Assembly: GCA_003151975.1 (NCBI GenBank)
Contig: PLZD01000055.1
Location: forward strand, 1-60,471
Origin: Elusimicrobiota bacterium
GTDB lineage: Bacteria > Elusimicrobiota > Elusimicrobia > UBA1565 > UBA9628
Length of the DNA: 60,471 nucleotides
Direction: 5' to 3'
Shown here: piece after piece, positions 10,826 to 43,247 of the stretch
Layout: the number at the start of each line of letters is the position of its first letter
How positions within the stretch are numbered: the first letter of the stretch is position 1
The notes under the pieces: generated by a model
Databases searched by the model: none
The model's input: the letters and a program-made list of their open reading frames with translations, nothing else
What the model was told of the DNA's origin: nothing
Made by a program: the position numbers and the translations under genes

Positions 10826-10870
10826 ATGCCCGATTCCGCCGCGCGGCTATTGGAACATGGACAAGAATAA
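10826..10870 (+). CDS. Leaderless 14-aa leader ORF before the STT3-like gene
   Basis: ATG 10826 sits 7 nt after TATACT and reads MPDSAARLLEHGQE before TAA. It overlaps the ATG of the STT3-like gene (10857) by 14 nt in another frame. The large gene has no convincing ribosome-binding site, so the mini-ORF may bring ribosomes to it by coupled reinitiation. It could also be chance: the evidence is spacing only. Confidence 0.35.
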   Translation: MPDSAARLLEHGQE

Positions 10871-12965
10871 TAGGACGCGCGCCATCGACGCCCCCGCGGC
10901 CGCGCTGACGGCGGCCGGCCTCGCCTTGCGGCTGGCTTCCGCGCGCGCGGTCTTCCGCGGCGGGAATATTCTTTTCATCGACACCGACGACTATTACCAT
11001 CTGCGCCGCATGATGACGGCGGCCGCGAATTTCCCGCGTCTGCCGTCTTTCGATTCGTATCTTGGTTTTCCGACGGGCTTCCATTGCAACTGGCCTCCAC
11101 TCTACGATTGGCTGGCCGGCTGGCTGATGATCGGCGCCAACCTCAGGACGGCGGAGATCATCGCCGCTTTCATCCCGCCCATCGCGGGCACGATCACGCT
11201 GTGGCTCTTTTACAAGGTCGCCGTGCGCGTCGTCGAACGACGCGCCGCGCTGTGGGCGCTCGGCATCGCCGCCGTCCTGCCTATGCCCGTGTTCTACACG
11301 ATGCTCGGCCGGCCGGACCATCATTCACCGGAGAACCTGTTTTTCTTTTTCGTCCTGGCGGTGGTCCTTGATCGCCTGAAGCGGGACGACAAGCCCTCGT
11401 GGAGGGACGCCTTGATTCCGGCCGCGGCGCTCAGCGCAGGCATCCTGTGCTGGATCGGCTCCGTCGTTTTCGCCGCGATCCTTTTTGCTTTCGCTCTTTG
11501 GGAACTCTTGCCTCGTCGTTCGCCGCCGAAGGCCGTCCTGTGGTTAGGCGAGGTGTTCGGATGCGCGGCGGTTCTCATTATTCCGTTCTGCTTCTTGAGC
11601 CATTGGGGCGTTGCCTTCGTCTACGACTTTGACGCCCCGAGCCCCTTTCAGTTCACTTTCTTGCTGGCTACCGCCTCATTAACCGTTGGGTTGTGGTGCT
11701 ACAGGGCTCGTGAAAATAAAAAGAGCGGCATTTTAATGTTGGTCGCGGCCTGCATCATGTTCTTAGAACTCGCCTACAGAAGCATCTCCTCATGGGCGCT
11801 GTTCGCCGGCGCGCCGTTGCGCGTTTTCCAGACGGCGTCCGAGATGCAGCCGCTGCTCAAGCCCTTCGGCCGCTGGAGCGGCGATTACGCGGGCGTTTTC
11901 TTCGGTTGGTCTTTGTGGCTGATCGCGCCGTTGGCTTGGCTCTTCTACAATAACGCCAAGACGCCCGCGCGCCGCCTCATTTTGATTTGGGCGGGAGTCA
12001 CCGGAGCGCTGGCGCTCTGGCAGACGCGGTACGCCTATCATTTCTCTTACCCCGCGGCGTTGCTGGTCGGATTCGGGGCCGACCGCGCGCTCGCGCGCTT
12101 GGGCCGTAAGTCCAAGTCCAAGGCCATGGCTTTGGCGGTGGTGCCCGTTGCGGCGGTTCTGATCCTGGGGCACGCGCTGAAGAATTCCGCCGGGATGGTG
12201 ATGGCCGACCCGCGCGCGCTGACGCTCGATACTGATCTCATCGAGACTTGCGACTGGCTGCGCGAGCACACGCCGCCCACGCGCTCGCTCTGGCGCGACG
12301 AGGGTGCGCCCGAATATGGCATTTACGCGCTGCACGATTACGGCGGGCCGATCTCGGCGATCGCACAGCGCCCGGCGGCGGCAGGAAACATGCACGTCAT
12401 GCGCGAGCAGATCAAGGAATCGGCCGCTCTTTTCTTCATGGAAAGCGAGAACCAAGCCTACGAATTCCTGAGCTCGCGGCGGTTCCGCTACGTCGTGCTC
12501 GACGACGTCGTTCATGACGGCCGCTTGGACAACGAGGCCGCGGGCGCCGGCATCCCAAGGATCACGGCGCGCCTTTGGGATCTCGTGTACGCGCGTCTCT
12601 ACGTCAACGATGGTTCCTTGTCGAACACCGGCGAGCGCTGGGTCGCTCCGGTCGGGCACATGCGCCTCGTGCACGAAAGTCCGACGGAGACTTTCGGCGT
12701 CAAGCGCTTCAAGGTTTTCGAGGTCGTCCCCGGCGCCGCTTTGAGCGGCAGGTGCGAGAAGGGGATCGTCGAGGCCTCCATCGCGCTGCGAACCGATCAA
12801 GGCCGCTCTTTCTCCTATCGCACGTTCTCTCCCTGCCAAGCGGGGCGTTATGATATGAATCTTCCCTACGCGGGACGCTATCAACTTTCCAAAGGCAAGG
12901 TCCGTGCGAGCCTCAGCGTCTCCGGGGAGGATGTCGAGCACGGCTCCTCCGTGAGCGCGCGATGA
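10857..12965 (+). CDS. STT3/PglB-like oligosaccharyltransferase
   Basis: A 702-aa GT-C membrane protein with the STT3/AglB/PglB layout: a first loop with IDTDDYYHLRRM (acidic pair at about D42-D45), a second acidic motif GRPDHHSPE (D153, as in GxxDHH), about a dozen membrane helices, and a C-terminal soluble domain. In that domain the usual WWDYG is replaced by LHDYGGPISA (about H493-G497), followed by QRPAAAGN, which fits the region after WWDYG in known enzymes. STT3 proteins transfer a lipid-linked glycan to Asn of secreted proteins. The substituted Trp residues mean activity should be tested. The start ATG is overlapped by a leaderless mini-ORF. Confidence 0.75.
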   Translation: MDKNNRTRAIDAPAAALTAAGLALRLASARAVFRGGNILFIDTDDYYHLRRMMTAAANFPRLPSFDSYLGFPTGFHCNWPPLYDWLAGWLMIGANLRTAEIIAAFIPPIAGTITLWLFYKVAVRVVERRAALWALGIAAVLPMPVFYTMLGRPDHHSPENLFFFFVLAVVLDRLKRDDKPSWRDALIPAAALSAGILCWIGSVVFAAILFAFALWELLPRRSPPKAVLWLGEVFGCAAVLIIPFCFLSHWGVAFVYDFDAPSPFQFTFLLATASLTVGLWCYRARENKKSGILMLVAACIMFLELAYRSISSWALFAGAPLRVFQTASEMQPLLKPFGRWSGDYAGVFFGWSLWLIAPLAWLFYNNAKTPARRLILIWAGVTGALALWQTRYAYHFSYPAALLVGFGADRALARLGRKSKSKAMALAVVPVAAVLILGHALKNSAGMVMADPRALTLDTDLIETCDWLREHTPPTRSLWRDEGAPEYGIYALHDYGGPISAIAQRPAAAGNMHVMREQIKESAALFFMESENQAYEFLSSRRFRYVVLDDVVHDGRLDNEAAGAGIPRITARLWDLVYARLYVNDGSLSNTGERWVAPVGHMRLVHESPTETFGVKRFKVFEVVPGAALSGRCEKGIVEASIALRTDQGRSFSYRTFSPCQAGRYDMNLPYAGRYQLSKGKVRASLSVSGEDVEHGSSVSAR

Positions 12966-40011: not shown

Positions 40012-40040
40012 TTGATAAGATCGCGCAGATGCATTACACT
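40012..40040 (+). promoter_or_regulatory. Promoter of the response regulator gene
   Basis: TTGATA (40012-40017), 17 nt, TACACT (40035-40040), then 9 nt to ATG 40050. The spacing puts the transcript start only about 3 nt before the start codon. Confidence 0.5.
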
Positions 40041-40049
40041 AAGGACGGC

Positions 40050-40772
40050 ATGCACCACGAGCGCATTCTGCTGGTCGACGACGAGCCCGGCTGGGTCGAG
40101 CTCGTGCAGCATTGGCTGGAGACGGCCGGCTACACGAATTTCGAGGCCGCGCAGAACGGCGTCGAGGCTCTCGAAAAAGCCCAGGCCAATCCTCCCGACT
40201 GCATCCTGCTTGACCTAGTCCTGCCCGACCAAAGCGGCATGGAAGTCTGCGCTAAGCTGCGGGCGCTTCCCGCTCTCAGCCGTACCCCGGTGGTCCTTTT
40301 GACGGGTCACAAGCGCGAGAAGGTGCTAGGCCTACAGAACGGGGCGGATTACTTCGTGGCCAAGGACGAGAAGCCGCACGAGCTCTTCGCGACGCTCGAC
40401 GCCGTCTTTCGTCGGCGCCAAATGGAGCAGGGCCTGCTGAACCGCGGCGGCCTCATGCTTCGCTCCTCCGACCGGAAGGTGTTCTGGCAGGAGAAAGAGG
40501 TCGCGACGCTCACCCCGAAGATGTTCCTTCTGATGCACGTTCTGGTCCAGCGCGGCCCCAACCCGGTGGCCCGCGCCGACCTGTTCCATGCGGTCGAGGG
40601 CCATGAGAATACGAGCGTCTCGCGGGCTCTCGACGTCATGCTCAACCGCCTGCGCAAGGCGCTGCCTCCGGAGGTCAGTTCGCGCATCGTCAACGTCAAG
40701 AATTTCGGCTACGTTTTTCTCGATACCGCCTCGGCTGCCCCTCCCTCCCCCAATACACCGCCCGCCGCGTAA
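40050..40772 (+). CDS. OmpR-type response regulator
   Basis: A 240-aa two-domain regulator. The receiver domain has the acidic pair Asp10/Asp11 (LLVDDEPG), phosphoacceptor Asp55 (ILLDLVLPD), the conserved Thr (VVLLTGH) and a Lys in VAKDEKP. The C-terminal half is a winged-helix DNA-binding domain (LTPKMFLLMHVLVQRGPNPVAR, then SRALDVMLNRLRKAL and GYVFL). No histidine kinase is adjacent, so it is an orphan. The start at 40050 is set by a TACACT box; the in-frame ATG at 40029 lies before that box. The riboswitch operon downstream has its own promoter. Confidence 0.88.
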   Translation: MHHERILLVDDEPGWVELVQHWLETAGYTNFEAAQNGVEALEKAQANPPDCILLDLVLPDQSGMEVCAKLRALPALSRTPVVLLTGHKREKVLGLQNGADYFVAKDEKPHELFATLDAVFRRRQMEQGLLNRGGLMLRSSDRKVFWQEKEVATLTPKMFLLMHVLVQRGPNPVARADLFHAVEGHENTSVSRALDVMLNRLRKALPPEVSSRIVNVKNFGYVFLDTASAAPPSPNTPPAA

Positions 40773-40805
40773 CGAACGAGTTACTTAACGTAACAATGCT
40801 GTGAA

Positions 40806-40834
40806 TTGACATAACACCCTTCTGGGGTTATGGT
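40806..40834 (+). promoter_or_regulatory. Promoter of the riboswitch-controlled operon
   Basis: TTGACA (40806-40811), 17 nt, TATGGT (40829-40834); start predicted near 40841, about 20 nt before the aptamer. An imperfect inverted repeat (ATAACACCC / GGGGTTAT, 40811-40831) covers the spacer and could be an operator. The rest of the 390-nt gap 40773-41162 is taken up by the aptamer, terminator and leader described separately. Confidence 0.6.
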
Positions 40835-40860
40835 TAGGTTAGCTCTTTCCCAACACGCCG

Positions 40861-40950
40861 GACGATAATAGCACACCCGGGGAAACCCGGGGCCGCAAAG
40901 CCAAGGGGCTACAGAGAAGCGTTCACTCCAAGCCCGCCGGGCTGCCGAAG
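40861..40950 (+). ncRNA. GEMM-I cyclic dinucleotide riboswitch aptamer
   Basis: Hallmarks of the GEMM-I fold appear in order: GATAATAGCACACC, a perfect 6-bp stem closed by a GAAA tetraloop (CCCGGG-GAAA-CCCGGG), the near-invariant CGCAAAGCC, AAGGGGCTAC, a variable stretch, then GCCGGGCTGCCGAAG with the tetraloop-receptor-type GCTGCCGAAG end. GEMM-I RNAs sense cyclic di-GMP, or cyclic AMP-GMP in a variant. The usual GGCAAACC is AGCACACC here, so ligand choice cannot be read safely. The 3' strand of the aptamer is also the 5' strand of a terminator, predicting that ligand turns expression on. Confidence 0.85.
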
Positions 40951-41004
40951 GGTCCTAGCGGATCTATACTCCGCTGGGGCCTTCGACAGCCCGGCATTTT
41001 TTTT
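40936..41004 (+). terminator. Riboswitch expression-platform terminator
   Basis: A long hairpin pairs 40936-40962 with 40970-40995 almost perfectly (GCCGGGCTGCCGAAGG against CCTTCGACAGCCCGGC, plus an AGCGGA/TCCGCT top) and is followed by ATTTTTTTT (T8 at 40997-41004). Its left strand is the 3' end of the GEMM aptamer, so aptamer folding and termination exclude each other. After it, 41005-41162 has a weaker hairpin (about 41015-41065) and no gene. Confidence 0.88.
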
Positions 41005-41162
41005 GGCGCCAAAACGGAAGCGACTCTGTCGGGGTTTCCGCCAGAGCCGCTCTTCGCCACGTTTCGGTGTCGTCGGTCAGGGAGACCATGCTAACACCTT
41101 GCTTTGAGTATAGCAGGACGGCATGGGAAAGCAAGACGCTCTCTGTCAGCACCAGTCAGACA

Positions 41163-42011
41163 ATGTCAAACATGATAATCGCCGTCCTTCTTCTGGTGGT
41201 CCTGGCTCCGGCCAGGGCCGACGATTATGCCAAGATGGCGGCCGAGCTCACGAAGGCCGCCATCGCGCACGGGGCTCGCCGCGTGGCCGTCCTCCCTTTC
41301 CGTGAAGTAGGGCTCGCGGCTGGGACCGCGGGGACCTTCGTTTCAGAGAAGATCACGGGCCCCATGCTCGGCGATGATAGACTGACGATCGTGGAGCGGA
41401 CGATGCTCCAGACCGTCCTGCGCGAGCAGAAGCTTCAGCTCTCGGGCGCCGCGGACCCGCGTTCCATTAAGGAGCTCGGCAAGGTCCTGGGCGTGGATGC
41501 GATCATCACGGGGACGATACTCGCCCTTAAGAACGACAAGGTGGAGATCAACGCGCGCTTGATCGACGCCGAGTCCGCCCGCGTGCTGAGCGTGTCCTCG
41601 GCCCGCGTCGAGAAGGAGTGGTCGGACTCGATCGCGGGGTCGGTGTTCGATATTCAAGTTCCTCCGTTAAACGGCTTCGAGAACGACGGAATGAAGGATG
41701 CGCTCGCTTCCGAGGATGAGACGAACTGTTCTTCGGCACGGAGCCGCGCGGCCGGCATCGAGCGCTCCATGGTGGACCTGAAGGCGAGATACTGGGCGGC
41801 GCGGATGAAGAGCCCGGGCTTCGACCGGACCAAGCTGACGACCAATCCGGGTTCGGAGATCGAGGATGCGGGCGTGAAGGCGGATTTTTACGACCGGCTC
41901 AAGCGTTACTATCAGGAGAGCGGCGCGGCGGTCACGGACTCCGACATCGAGCGGCTCAACGACAGTCAGCACAAGATCAAGCAGATCAGCGAGCTCTGCC
42001 ACGGGGCGTGA
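41163..42011 (+). CDS. FlgO/CsgG-like secreted envelope protein
   Basis: A 282-aa protein with a signal peptide (MSNMIIAVLLLVVLAPARA). The mature N-terminal half follows the FlgO/CsgG pattern: RRVAVLPFREVG, FVSEKITGPMLGDDRLTIVERTMLQTVLREQ, then LGKVLGVDAIITGTILAL and NARLIDAESARVLSV. The last 100 residues are helical and not assignable. FlgO with FlgP and FlgT forms outer-membrane-associated flagellar basal-body structures in Vibrio. ATG 41163 is used because it starts the signal peptide; ATG 41172 is an alternative. It is the first gene after the riboswitch. Confidence 0.75.
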   Translation: MSNMIIAVLLLVVLAPARADDYAKMAAELTKAAIAHGARRVAVLPFREVGLAAGTAGTFVSEKITGPMLGDDRLTIVERTMLQTVLREQKLQLSGAADPRSIKELGKVLGVDAIITGTILALKNDKVEINARLIDAESARVLSVSSARVEKEWSDSIAGSVFDIQVPPLNGFENDGMKDALASEDETNCSSARSRAAGIERSMVDLKARYWAARMKSPGFDRTKLTTNPGSEIEDAGVKADFYDRLKRYYQESGAAVTDSDIERLNDSQHKIKQISELCHGA

Positions 42012-42021
42012 GGGGGAAATT

Positions 42022-42477
42022 ATGAAAATGCCGAAGAACGAAGCGTTCGTGCTGGCGGTCCTGATGGGCTGCGCCGCGGGCTGCGGCGCGCCGCAAAGCC
42101 GCCTGACGCGGCAGCGATTCGTGCAGACGACCATCGACCAGCGGCCCGACCGCTCGTCCTACATCGAGTCGATCGGCATCGGCGCCTCGGACCCGAGCCT
42201 CAAGACCGACACCCAGCGCAAGGCGCTGGCCCGGGACGCCGCGATCGTCAAGGCGCAGTACGAGATGCTGGCCATGGTCAAAGGCGTCGAGTTGGACGGA
42301 GGAATTACGGTGGACCGCGCGATGGAGACCGACTCGAGCCTGGCGGCCAAGCTCCGCGAGACGATCCGCGGGGCCGAGATCCTCAAGAGCGAGTTCACGG
42401 CCGACAACGGCTGCGTGGTCACCTTGCGCCTGCCCAAGCGGCGCCTCGAGGCCATGATGGGGGTGAAGTTCCGGTGA
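42022..42477 (+). CDS. FlgP/LPP20-like lipoprotein
   Basis: A 151-aa lipoprotein (LMGCAAGC lipobox; two candidate Cys). The mature part has SYIESIGIGASDPSLKTDTQRKALARDAAIVKAQYEMLAMVKGVEL, the LPP20/FlgP pattern of an Ala-rich helix after a short strand, ending in CVVTLRLPKRRLEAM. FlgP-like lipoproteins build the basal disk or H-ring under outer membranes. ATG 42022 follows AGGGGG at 42011-42016. The stop overlaps the next gene (GTGA). Confidence 0.72.
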   Translation: MKMPKNEAFVLAVLMGCAAGCGAPQSRLTRQRFVQTTIDQRPDRSSYIESIGIGASDPSLKTDTQRKALARDAAIVKAQYEMLAMVKGVELDGGITVDRAMETDSSLAAKLRETIRGAEILKSEFTADNGCVVTLRLPKRRLEAMMGVKFR

Positions 42478-43247
42478 GAGCCTTGGCGCTCGCCGTCCTT
42501 TTGGCCGCGGCCTTGGAGGGATGCCACTCCCTCCAGGGTCCGCGGCCCAATATTCCGGTCGTCGTCGAGGCCGAGGGCTGGGCCCCGGCCGATCCTGCCG
42601 GCGTTGAGCGTTCACGGCAGAAGGCGTTGGCCGAGGCCAAGCGCGCGGCCGTCGAAAAAGCGATGGGCGCGAAACTTTCGGCGGTCACGCGCCTGAATAA
42701 CTCCTCTGAGGTCGAGCAGCTCATCGTGACGCGGGCGTCCGGGGTGGTCGCGAAGTACAAAATCCTTTCCGAAGGCGAGGTCTCGGGGCTCTACGGGGTC
42801 ACGATCAAGGCGTGGGTCAAGTCCCGCGGCGAGGACGACGACGGGCCGGAGGCGTTCTTGCCTCCGCCGGGCGATCCTCGCGTGTCGGTCAAGGCGGCGG
42901 CGGAGGGAGATTATGCAAAACGCTCAATGGATGGCCTTTGGCAAGGGCTTTCGGGCCGAGGGGTCACGATGGTCGACGGGGCCGGCGCCGATCTCGTCGT
43001 CACGGTGGACGCCGAGGTCAAAGAACTTGATAACGCCGGGCTGGAAGGTCTGCGCTCTTGGCGCGCCCGAGCGTGGGCCGTGGCTCGCGACGCCAAGACG
43101 GGGGCGGTCGTCTCTCAAACCAGCAGCGAAGCCTCGGCCGTCGATCTCGTAGCCTCCTCCGCCGCAGGCCTGGCCGCCGAGCGCGCCGGCGTCGCGGCCG
43201 GTCAGTCCCTGGCCAAAAATCTAGACGAGTCTCTCCAAAGCAGATAG
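42474..43247 (+). CDS. FlgT-like lipoprotein
   Basis: A 257-aa lipoprotein (LAAALEGC lipobox). The N-terminal domain (about 28-120) carries VEAEGWAP, RSRQKALAEAKRAAVEKAMGA, LNNSSEVEQLIVTRASGVVAKYKILSE and GLYGVTIKAWV in outline, which fits the FlgT N-terminal/LPP20-like fold. The C-terminal half (DGLWQGLSGRGVTMV, ADLVVTVDAEVKEL) resembles a second CsgG- or FlgT-middle-like domain. GTG 42474 overlaps the previous stop. With its two upstream neighbours it completes a FlgO-P-T-like trio under riboswitch control. Confidence 0.7.
   Translation: MRALALAVLLAAALEGCHSLQGPRPNIPVVVEAEGWAPADPAGVERSRQKALAEAKRAAVEKAMGAKLSAVTRLNNSSEVEQLIVTRASGVVAKYKILSEGEVSGLYGVTIKAWVKSRGEDDDGPEAFLPPPGDPRVSVKAAAEGDYAKRSMDGLWQGLSGRGVTMVDGAGADLVVTVDAEVKELDNAGLEGLRSWRARAWAVARDAKTGAVVSQTSSEASAVDLVASSAAGLAAERAGVAAGQSLAKNLDESLQSR

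Follow-up and report, generated by a model that had tools for sequence, protein, structure and literature searches.

To which signal does a riboswitch ahead of flagellar-ring-like genes respond in a bacterium without the export gate of the flagellum, and what structure do those genes serve? The question is posed by a GEMM-I riboswitch and the three genes downstream of it (40806-43247, forward strand) in a 60,471-nucleotide stretch of an Elusimicrobiota genome (contig PLZD01000055.1, positions 1 to 60,471; hereafter the window). Here we present a computational analysis of this locus, in which the leader is read as an ON switch for cyclic di-GMP (c-di-GMP) that would control ring proteins of a non-flagellar rotary-type machine. 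We assign this reading as a whole a probability of about 0.55, a figure that blends the confidences of the individual steps and is not their product, as the last two steps are inferred. The window genome (G000; 4.64 Mb in 68 contigs, 96% complete) was analysed within a comparison set of 57 related genomes that includes it; G and L numbers denote the genomes and loci of this analysis.

The aptamer was located by a covariance-model search (cmscan against Rfam), which matched the GEMM-I model (c-di-GMP-I, RF01051) at 40860-40949 on the forward strand with 65.7 bits (E = 1.2e-10; gathering threshold 35 bits). The match spans the full model (positions 1-87) and is the only Rfam match within the window. 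Our own covariance model R1, in which the window sequence is itself one row, scores it at 74.7 bits. When 20 GEMM-I aptamers from this genome and its relatives were aligned, 97% of cells were paired and 14 of the 20 pairs varied on both sides; helices P2 and P3 covary, and the covariation exceeds that of all 500 shuffles and all slid controls. The initial annotation, made from the sequence letters, had proposed a complete GEMM-I aptamer, and that the element is a GEMM-I riboswitch is now close to certain. It belongs to a known family, from which its pocket deviates, and it is predicted to bind a cyclic dinucleotide.

The remainder of the leader has the layout of a transcriptional switch. A sigma-70-type promoter, TTGACA-N17-TATGGT (40806-40834, +), matches the consensus at 10 of 12 positions; it runs from TTGACA beginning at 40806 to TATGGT at 40834 with a 17-nucleotide spacer, it is the only promoter-like site in 40700-41250, and 0.2 such sites are expected in shuffled sequence. 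Downstream lies an intrinsic terminator stem of 25 bp (40936-40995, +; -49.9 kcal/mol, z = -6.8) followed by a U8 tract, read directly from the sequence as T8 in the DNA (40997-41004, +). A simple terminator scan missed this stem, an omission that we attribute to limits of the method. As its 5' half, the terminator uses the 3' strand of the aptamer, GCCGGGCUGCCGAA. In minimum-energy folds of the growing transcript, the aptamer pairing holds until the end reaches approximately 40989-40992 and is then replaced in full by the terminator pairing, so that the two structures, which share a strand, are mutually exclusive. The promoter, the shared strand and the ligand-on geometry had all been put forward in the initial annotation, and all three are borne out by these results. 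Mutual exclusion of aptamer and terminator is also the arrangement of the pilM switch of Geobacter metallireducens, which is an ON switch (PMC9262584), and the geometry here is likewise ligand-ON. Without ligand, the strong terminator would capture the 3' strand of the aptamer and turn the operon off; bound ligand would keep the aptamer closed and let RNA polymerase proceed into the FlgO/FlgP/FlgT-like genes. On the strength of this geometry, ligand-ON control of transcription is very probably also the direction taken in vivo.

Which ligand is sensed depends on the pocket, in which one residue stands out. In GEMM-I aptamers, the J1/2 strand ends with a ligand-contacting A, after which P2 starts (PMC6274999), and G11 of the Cd1 aptamer of Clostridium difficile corresponds to G20 of Vc2, a position described as a selectivity factor and not a hard filter (PMC9262584). 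Since A40870 (+) sits immediately before the first P2 pair, it maps to Vc2 position 20 by both accounts. It is preceded by a U, and the five other aptamers in the genome carry G at this position. A second change, C40874 (+) in the lower P2 stem, replaces A24 and is accompanied by C in place of A or G at position 43. C24 occurs in 12 aptamers, and as C or U at position 43 goes with it in 10 of these, we regard it as a lineage-typical structural variant and not as a change of the pocket. The earlier observation of an altered aptamer position is thus confirmed, with both residues now placed.

Of 125 aptamers from G000 and its relatives, 108 carry G at position 20 and 15 carry A, while C and T are found in one aptamer each. 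Among aptamers linked to FlgO-like genes, A is found in G000, G029, G034 and G045, G in eleven and C in G027. Aptamers linked to a motor-like operon described below have A20 in G036, G040, G041 and G042 and G20 in G000. The same operons therefore carry either base. The enzymes point in a similar direction: G000 encodes at least six GGDEF domains with an intact motif and the canonical Asp, whereas direct reading of its GGDEF domains found no S-signature (Hypr) variant, Asp being present throughout, degenerate domains aside. Two DNA patterns likewise gave no Hypr GGDEF in the 57 genomes, although unusual spacings would escape them; pattern matches in seven relatives were out of frame, had the wrong residue or were cut at a contig end, so that none was usable, and a further match in G033 contains an in-frame stop. 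No SMODS/CD-NTase match was found in G000, where, at 96% completeness, such a gene could lie in the missing part. We therefore consider c-di-GMP likelier than cyclic AMP-GMP (cGAMP), given that A and G alternate among orthologous aptamers and that neither a Hypr GGDEF nor a CD-NTase was found in G000. Where the initial annotation had left both ligands in play, c-di-GMP is now favoured and cGAMP weakened, also because orthologues are mostly G20. C-di-GMP is probably the main ligand of the window aptamer, and the simplest reading of A20 is likely to be c-di-GMP sensing with altered affinity; the A20 pocket would then bring a changed affinity or relaxed specificity, not strict cGAMP sensing.

The same residue can be read the other way. 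If the window aptamer were a true cGAMP-selective (GEMM-Ib) switch, 3',3'-cGAMP made by an unrecognised enzyme would turn it on, and its messenger would differ from that of the other five aptamers. A20 is the residue found in cGAMP aptamers (PMC6274999, PMC9262584), it occurs in just one of the six G000 aptamers, and the mutually exclusive ON design is that of the pilM cGAMP switch (PMC9262584). Weighing further against c-di-GMP, U19 precedes A20 in 12 of 15 A20 aptamers and precedes G20 in 10 of 108 (p = 1.6e-8, kinship uncorrected); the U19-A20 combination recurs in several families and could mark a real ligand class. The missing cGAMP synthases and the prevalence of G20 among FlgO-linked orthologues speak against such a switch, as does the finding that replacing the corresponding G of Cd1 by A or C had no large effect and left c-di-GMP binding in place (PMC9262584). 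On balance, we hold cGAMP selectivity to be unlikely, at perhaps one chance in a few. Three further lines were followed and set aside. Two of the four genomes with SMODS matches (G050 and G053) hold an A20 aptamer, yet most A20 genomes, G000 included, have no SMODS match. The c-di-GMP-I-GGC model (RF03167) scores best for four other G000 aptamers, but these keep A47 (GCAAAG), and the model was not used as an argument on the ligand. A Geobacter cGAMP aptamer, in an approximate sequence, had no match in plasmids.

The two substitutions might alternatively mean that the aptamer has drifted, A20 and C24 being signs that ligand is no longer sensed tightly, in a leader that acts mostly as a constitutive attenuator. 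Decay of this kind has a possible parallel in FlgO-linked aptamers of G027, G029 and L181, in which the J1/2 strand is degenerate though P2, P3 and the terminator remain. The window aptamer, by contrast, scores 65.7 bits with its other pocket positions intact, its C24 is accompanied by C43, a combination also seen in relatives, and its promoter and terminator are strong, which makes drift very improbable. FlgO-linked aptamers at L018:1507-1639, L019:1170-1265 and L181:1620-1708 have GCGAGG, GCUGGG and GCGGAG, respectively, in place of GCAAAC in J1/2. Their P2 and P3 are intact, as is the terminator at least in L018 and L019, and new specificity or decay are both possible.

The switch is conserved with its target. 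In 16 of the 57 genomes, G000 included, the gene immediately after a GEMM-I aptamer is FlgO-like, and the FlgP- and FlgT-like genes follow in G027, G028 and G033 and, by tblastn, in G030. A collection scan with the FlgP-like protein returned seven relatives, all of them Elusimicrobiota metagenome-assembled genomes, and a comparison of the riboswitch leader with phage sequences gave a single short, unannotated match. The expression platform is a terminator with a U-tract in G000, G027 and G029. In G039, G041 and G044, a strand of 11-12 nucleotides complementary to the 3' end of the aptamer lies immediately before the start codon, and a similar strand lies farther from an assigned start in G034, G037 and G042. 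Mutual exclusion thus seems to be kept across relatives, while the output may shift from transcription to translation.

The three genes follow one another in the order FlgO-, FlgP- and FlgT-like, and agree with these proteins in fold. The first (41088-42011, +) encodes a FlgO/CsgG-like secreted protein that exceeds the Pfam cut-offs for both families (FlgO, PF17680, 29.7 bits against 22.6; CsgG, 47.4 against 20.8); its ATG at 41088 is preceded by AGGGAG, and the frame is open from a GTG at 41067. The second (42022-42477, +) encodes a FlgP/LPP20-like lipoprotein with an invariant lipobox Cys. A profile built from ten relatives matches a flagellar-scaffold lipoprotein of Campylobacter (9hmf_C, E = 4.3e-8), which we take to be FlgP, and matches chains named FlgP weakly. 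The predicted structure (predicted local distance difference test score 78) finds 9hmf (Foldseek E = 9.4e-4) and also Lpp20 of Helicobacter pylori (5ok8), on which it superposes with a middling Z of 7.6. The Pfam LPP20 family does not match the window protein, and three of ten aligned proteins match it with a best E of 0.14. The third gene (42474-43247, +) encodes a FlgT-like lipoprotein with N-terminal and middle domains only, for which FlgT_N scores 24.6 bits, below its cut-off of 28.8. Its predicted structure has as best Foldseek matches a chain of the LPHT ring (8z5n_0, E = 2.9e-8) and FlgT (3w1e, E = 5.8e-8). Superposition gives Z = 8.5 over 173 residues, but with a root mean squared deviation of 21 for both domains together; the second domain alone against 8z5n gives 3.0 (Z = 7.8), and this domain also fits other lipoproteins of the CsgG/PelC/LptE type. 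The resemblance to Vibrio FlgO, FlgP and FlgT drawn in the initial annotation accordingly holds, by Pfam for FlgO and by profile and predicted fold for FlgP and FlgT.

Resemblance to ring proteins does not make the locus flagellar. FlhA (FHIPEP) was absent from G000 and 54 other genomes of the 57, which thus lack the flagellar export gate, and for this reason we do not class the trio as a flagellar H-ring. The same result lends support to the suggestion that these proteins belong to an envelope structure other than a flagellum. Of the diguanylate cyclase, flagellar and pilus genes that the initial annotation had proposed to look for, G000 shows the GGDEF domains listed above, no FlhA and four secretin domains.

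A candidate partner was reached through the other aptamers of the genome. On contig C32 of G000 (L213:1934-10692), a GEMM-I aptamer with G20 leads an operon encoding, in order, an outer-membrane protein, a FliG-domain fusion, a coiled-coil protein, MotA, MotB and a lipoprotein. The outer-membrane protein matches UPF0164 and TPR (UPF0164/PorV-like). The fusion (662 residues) combines FliG_M and FliG_C domains (FliG_C, 80.9 bits; phmmer E = 1.5e-31 against FliG 1lkv) with TPR, and has a secreted-type region and a membrane segment ahead of the FliG domains. The third protein is proline-rich and coiled-coil (672 residues), MotA matches solved MotA (E = 7.9e-51), and MotB has plug and OmpA domains and a YAD motif. 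Taking a strong match (above 200 bits) as presence, the fusion is found in 42 of the 57 genomes and GEMM-I in 43; the two agree in 54 (41 with both, 13 with neither, 3 discordant; Fisher 6e-10, kinship uncorrected), and in 33 genomes the fusion gene has an aptamer 1.7-2.2 kb ahead of it. The fusion is present in 15 of the 16 genomes that have the GEMM-I-FlgO unit, the exception, G045, having FlhA. Closer still, the FlgO operon of G010 runs on into FliF-C-like and MotA/ExbB-like genes, and gene 3 of G027 is followed by a FliF-C-like protein. In G047, two tandem GEMM-I aptamers about 240 nucleotides apart, the second weak, lie upstream of the FliG-fusion operon (L151:2053-2132 and 2375-2445). 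The MotA/MotB and FliG-domain operon, which the initial annotation did not name when it suggested a pilus or secretion ring, is a likely partner of the trio. The trio would probably build an outer-membrane or periplasmic ring, comparable to the H-ring of Vibrio or the FlgP disk of Campylobacter, and this ring would serve a non-flagellar rotary-type motor of MotA, MotB, the FliG-domain fusion and the outer-membrane protein, encoded elsewhere in the genome under its own GEMM-I.

Several observations weigh against this assignment. In G000 the motor operon lies on another contig than the trio, so that the two are linked by common regulation and by homology but not by position. FlgP-like genes are found in the motor-less genomes G019, G023 and G026 as well, no GEMM-I was detected at several FlgP/FlgT-like clusters (L175-L180), and the trio may work with different partners or with further ones. 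A FliF-like part in the fusion is weakly supported (FliF-C E = 0.004-0.06, no PDB hit); with weak similarity only, we did not adopt a FliF identity for its N-terminal part. The trio could instead decorate another outer-membrane machine, such as a type IV pilus secretin or that of a type II secretion system, unrelated to the motor. The four secretin domains of G000 and the FlgP-like genes of motor-less genomes are consistent with this, and CsgG, FlgT-middle and PelC-type folds are common in outer-membrane lipoprotein systems. No secretin gene was seen beside the trio in the neighbourhoods inspected, however, motor-type genes adjoin it in G010, and the motor gene accompanies the GEMM-I-FlgO unit in all but the FlhA-bearing genome, which leaves a secretin partner rather unlikely. 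For the ring of a MotAB/FliG-domain machine, we judge the odds to be about even. A broader proposal is more tentative: Elusimicrobiota might possess an undescribed flagellum-free rotary motor of their own, with a MotA/MotB stator, a FliG-domain rotor fusion, an outer-membrane protein and FlgO/P/T-like rings, licensed by a set of GEMM-I switches of which some (A20) are retuned in affinity or ligand, so that its parts answer different signal levels or messengers.

The neighbour upstream of the riboswitch (40029-40772, +) encodes a response regulator with a winged-helix DNA-binding domain (Pfam Response_reg 85.6 bits, Trans_reg_C 48.6 bits), and N-terminal sequences of neighbours place receiver-domain genes immediately ahead of the riboswitch in G010, G027 and L181 as well. 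At L175 and L178, from named Elusimicrobia metagenome-assembled genomes, a response regulator and a FlgO-like gene stand in one cluster with FlgP/FlgT-like genes, with no detectable GEMM-I. Elsewhere in G000, G20 aptamers precede a PorV/UPF0164-like outer-membrane protein followed by an NHL-repeat protein (L004, C52:8490) and an fn3-repeat protein (L005, C26:218001), which suggests a surface-protein regulon. Some 1.4 kb downstream of the L006 GEMM-I aptamer is a frame that counts at least 4,378 codons and extends past the end of the stretch read (L217:2867-16000, C43), possibly a giant surface protein. The window also holds a polyketide/fatty-acid-type cluster (13084-33236), with two proteins of more than 2,100 residues containing ketoacyl synthase, acyltransferase, KR and FabA-like domains, an AMP-binding enzyme and a 3beta-HSD-like protein, and an STT3/AglB-like oligosaccharyltransferase (10857-12965; Pfam STT3 and archaeal AglB_L1 domains).

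Rotor proteins in species without a filament have been noted as an open question (PMC12199754). Among the open-licence papers searched, we found none on such a motor or on a GEMM riboswitch in Elusimicrobiota, nor any on GEMM-I control of flagellar-ring-like proteins together with a MotAB/FliG-domain operon where the export gate is lacking. The locus offers a concrete candidate, in that FliG domains, MotAB and flagellar-type ring proteins each stand under riboswitches of the cyclic-dinucleotide kind in bacteria whose genomes lack an export gate. Because, across a class of genomes, the FliG fusion is present or absent together with GEMM-I, its function is directly testable, and the mixture of G20 and A20 inside single genomes offers a natural experiment on the evolution of GEMM-I specificity where no cGAMP synthase is known. 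Sister switches on a ring-like trio and a motor-like operon hint at a signal-controlled rotary machine without a flagellum.

Set against known systems, each part of the locus has a relative from which it departs. Like the c-di-GMP-I riboswitches (RF01051; for example, Vc2 and Cd1), the window aptamer is full and conserves A47 and the 3' CCGA strand, but it has A where they have G at position 20. With the pilM cGAMP riboswitch of G. metallireducens (GEMM-Ib; PMC9262584) it shares the GEMM-I fold, A at the selectivity position, a mutually exclusive transcriptional ON design and control of an envelope machine; unlike that switch, it belongs to an Elusimicrobiota host whose genome has no Hypr GGDEF and whose remaining aptamers carry G at the selectivity position, and it controls FlgO/P/T-like genes. 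As in the Vibrio H-ring, three consecutive genes encode FlgO-domain, FlgP/LPP20-type and FlgT-type proteins, but the host lacks FlhA, the FlgP-like protein falls under the Pfam cut-off, and the FlgT-like protein has 257 residues against 356 in 3w1e, matching in its N-terminal and middle domains only. The FlgP basal disk of Campylobacter jejuni (9hmf) is the top profile match of the second and third proteins (E = 4e-8 and 6e-9), whereas the genome has no flagellar motor of that type. Finally, as in the rotor and stator of the flagellum, G000 has MotA, MotB with plug, OmpA domain and YAD motif, and FliG middle and C-terminal domains, here in one GEMM-I-led operon; unlike in the flagellum, the FliG domains form one protein with a secreted-type domain, a membrane segment and TPR, and the operon starts with a UPF0164/PorV-like outer-membrane protein in a host without FlhA.

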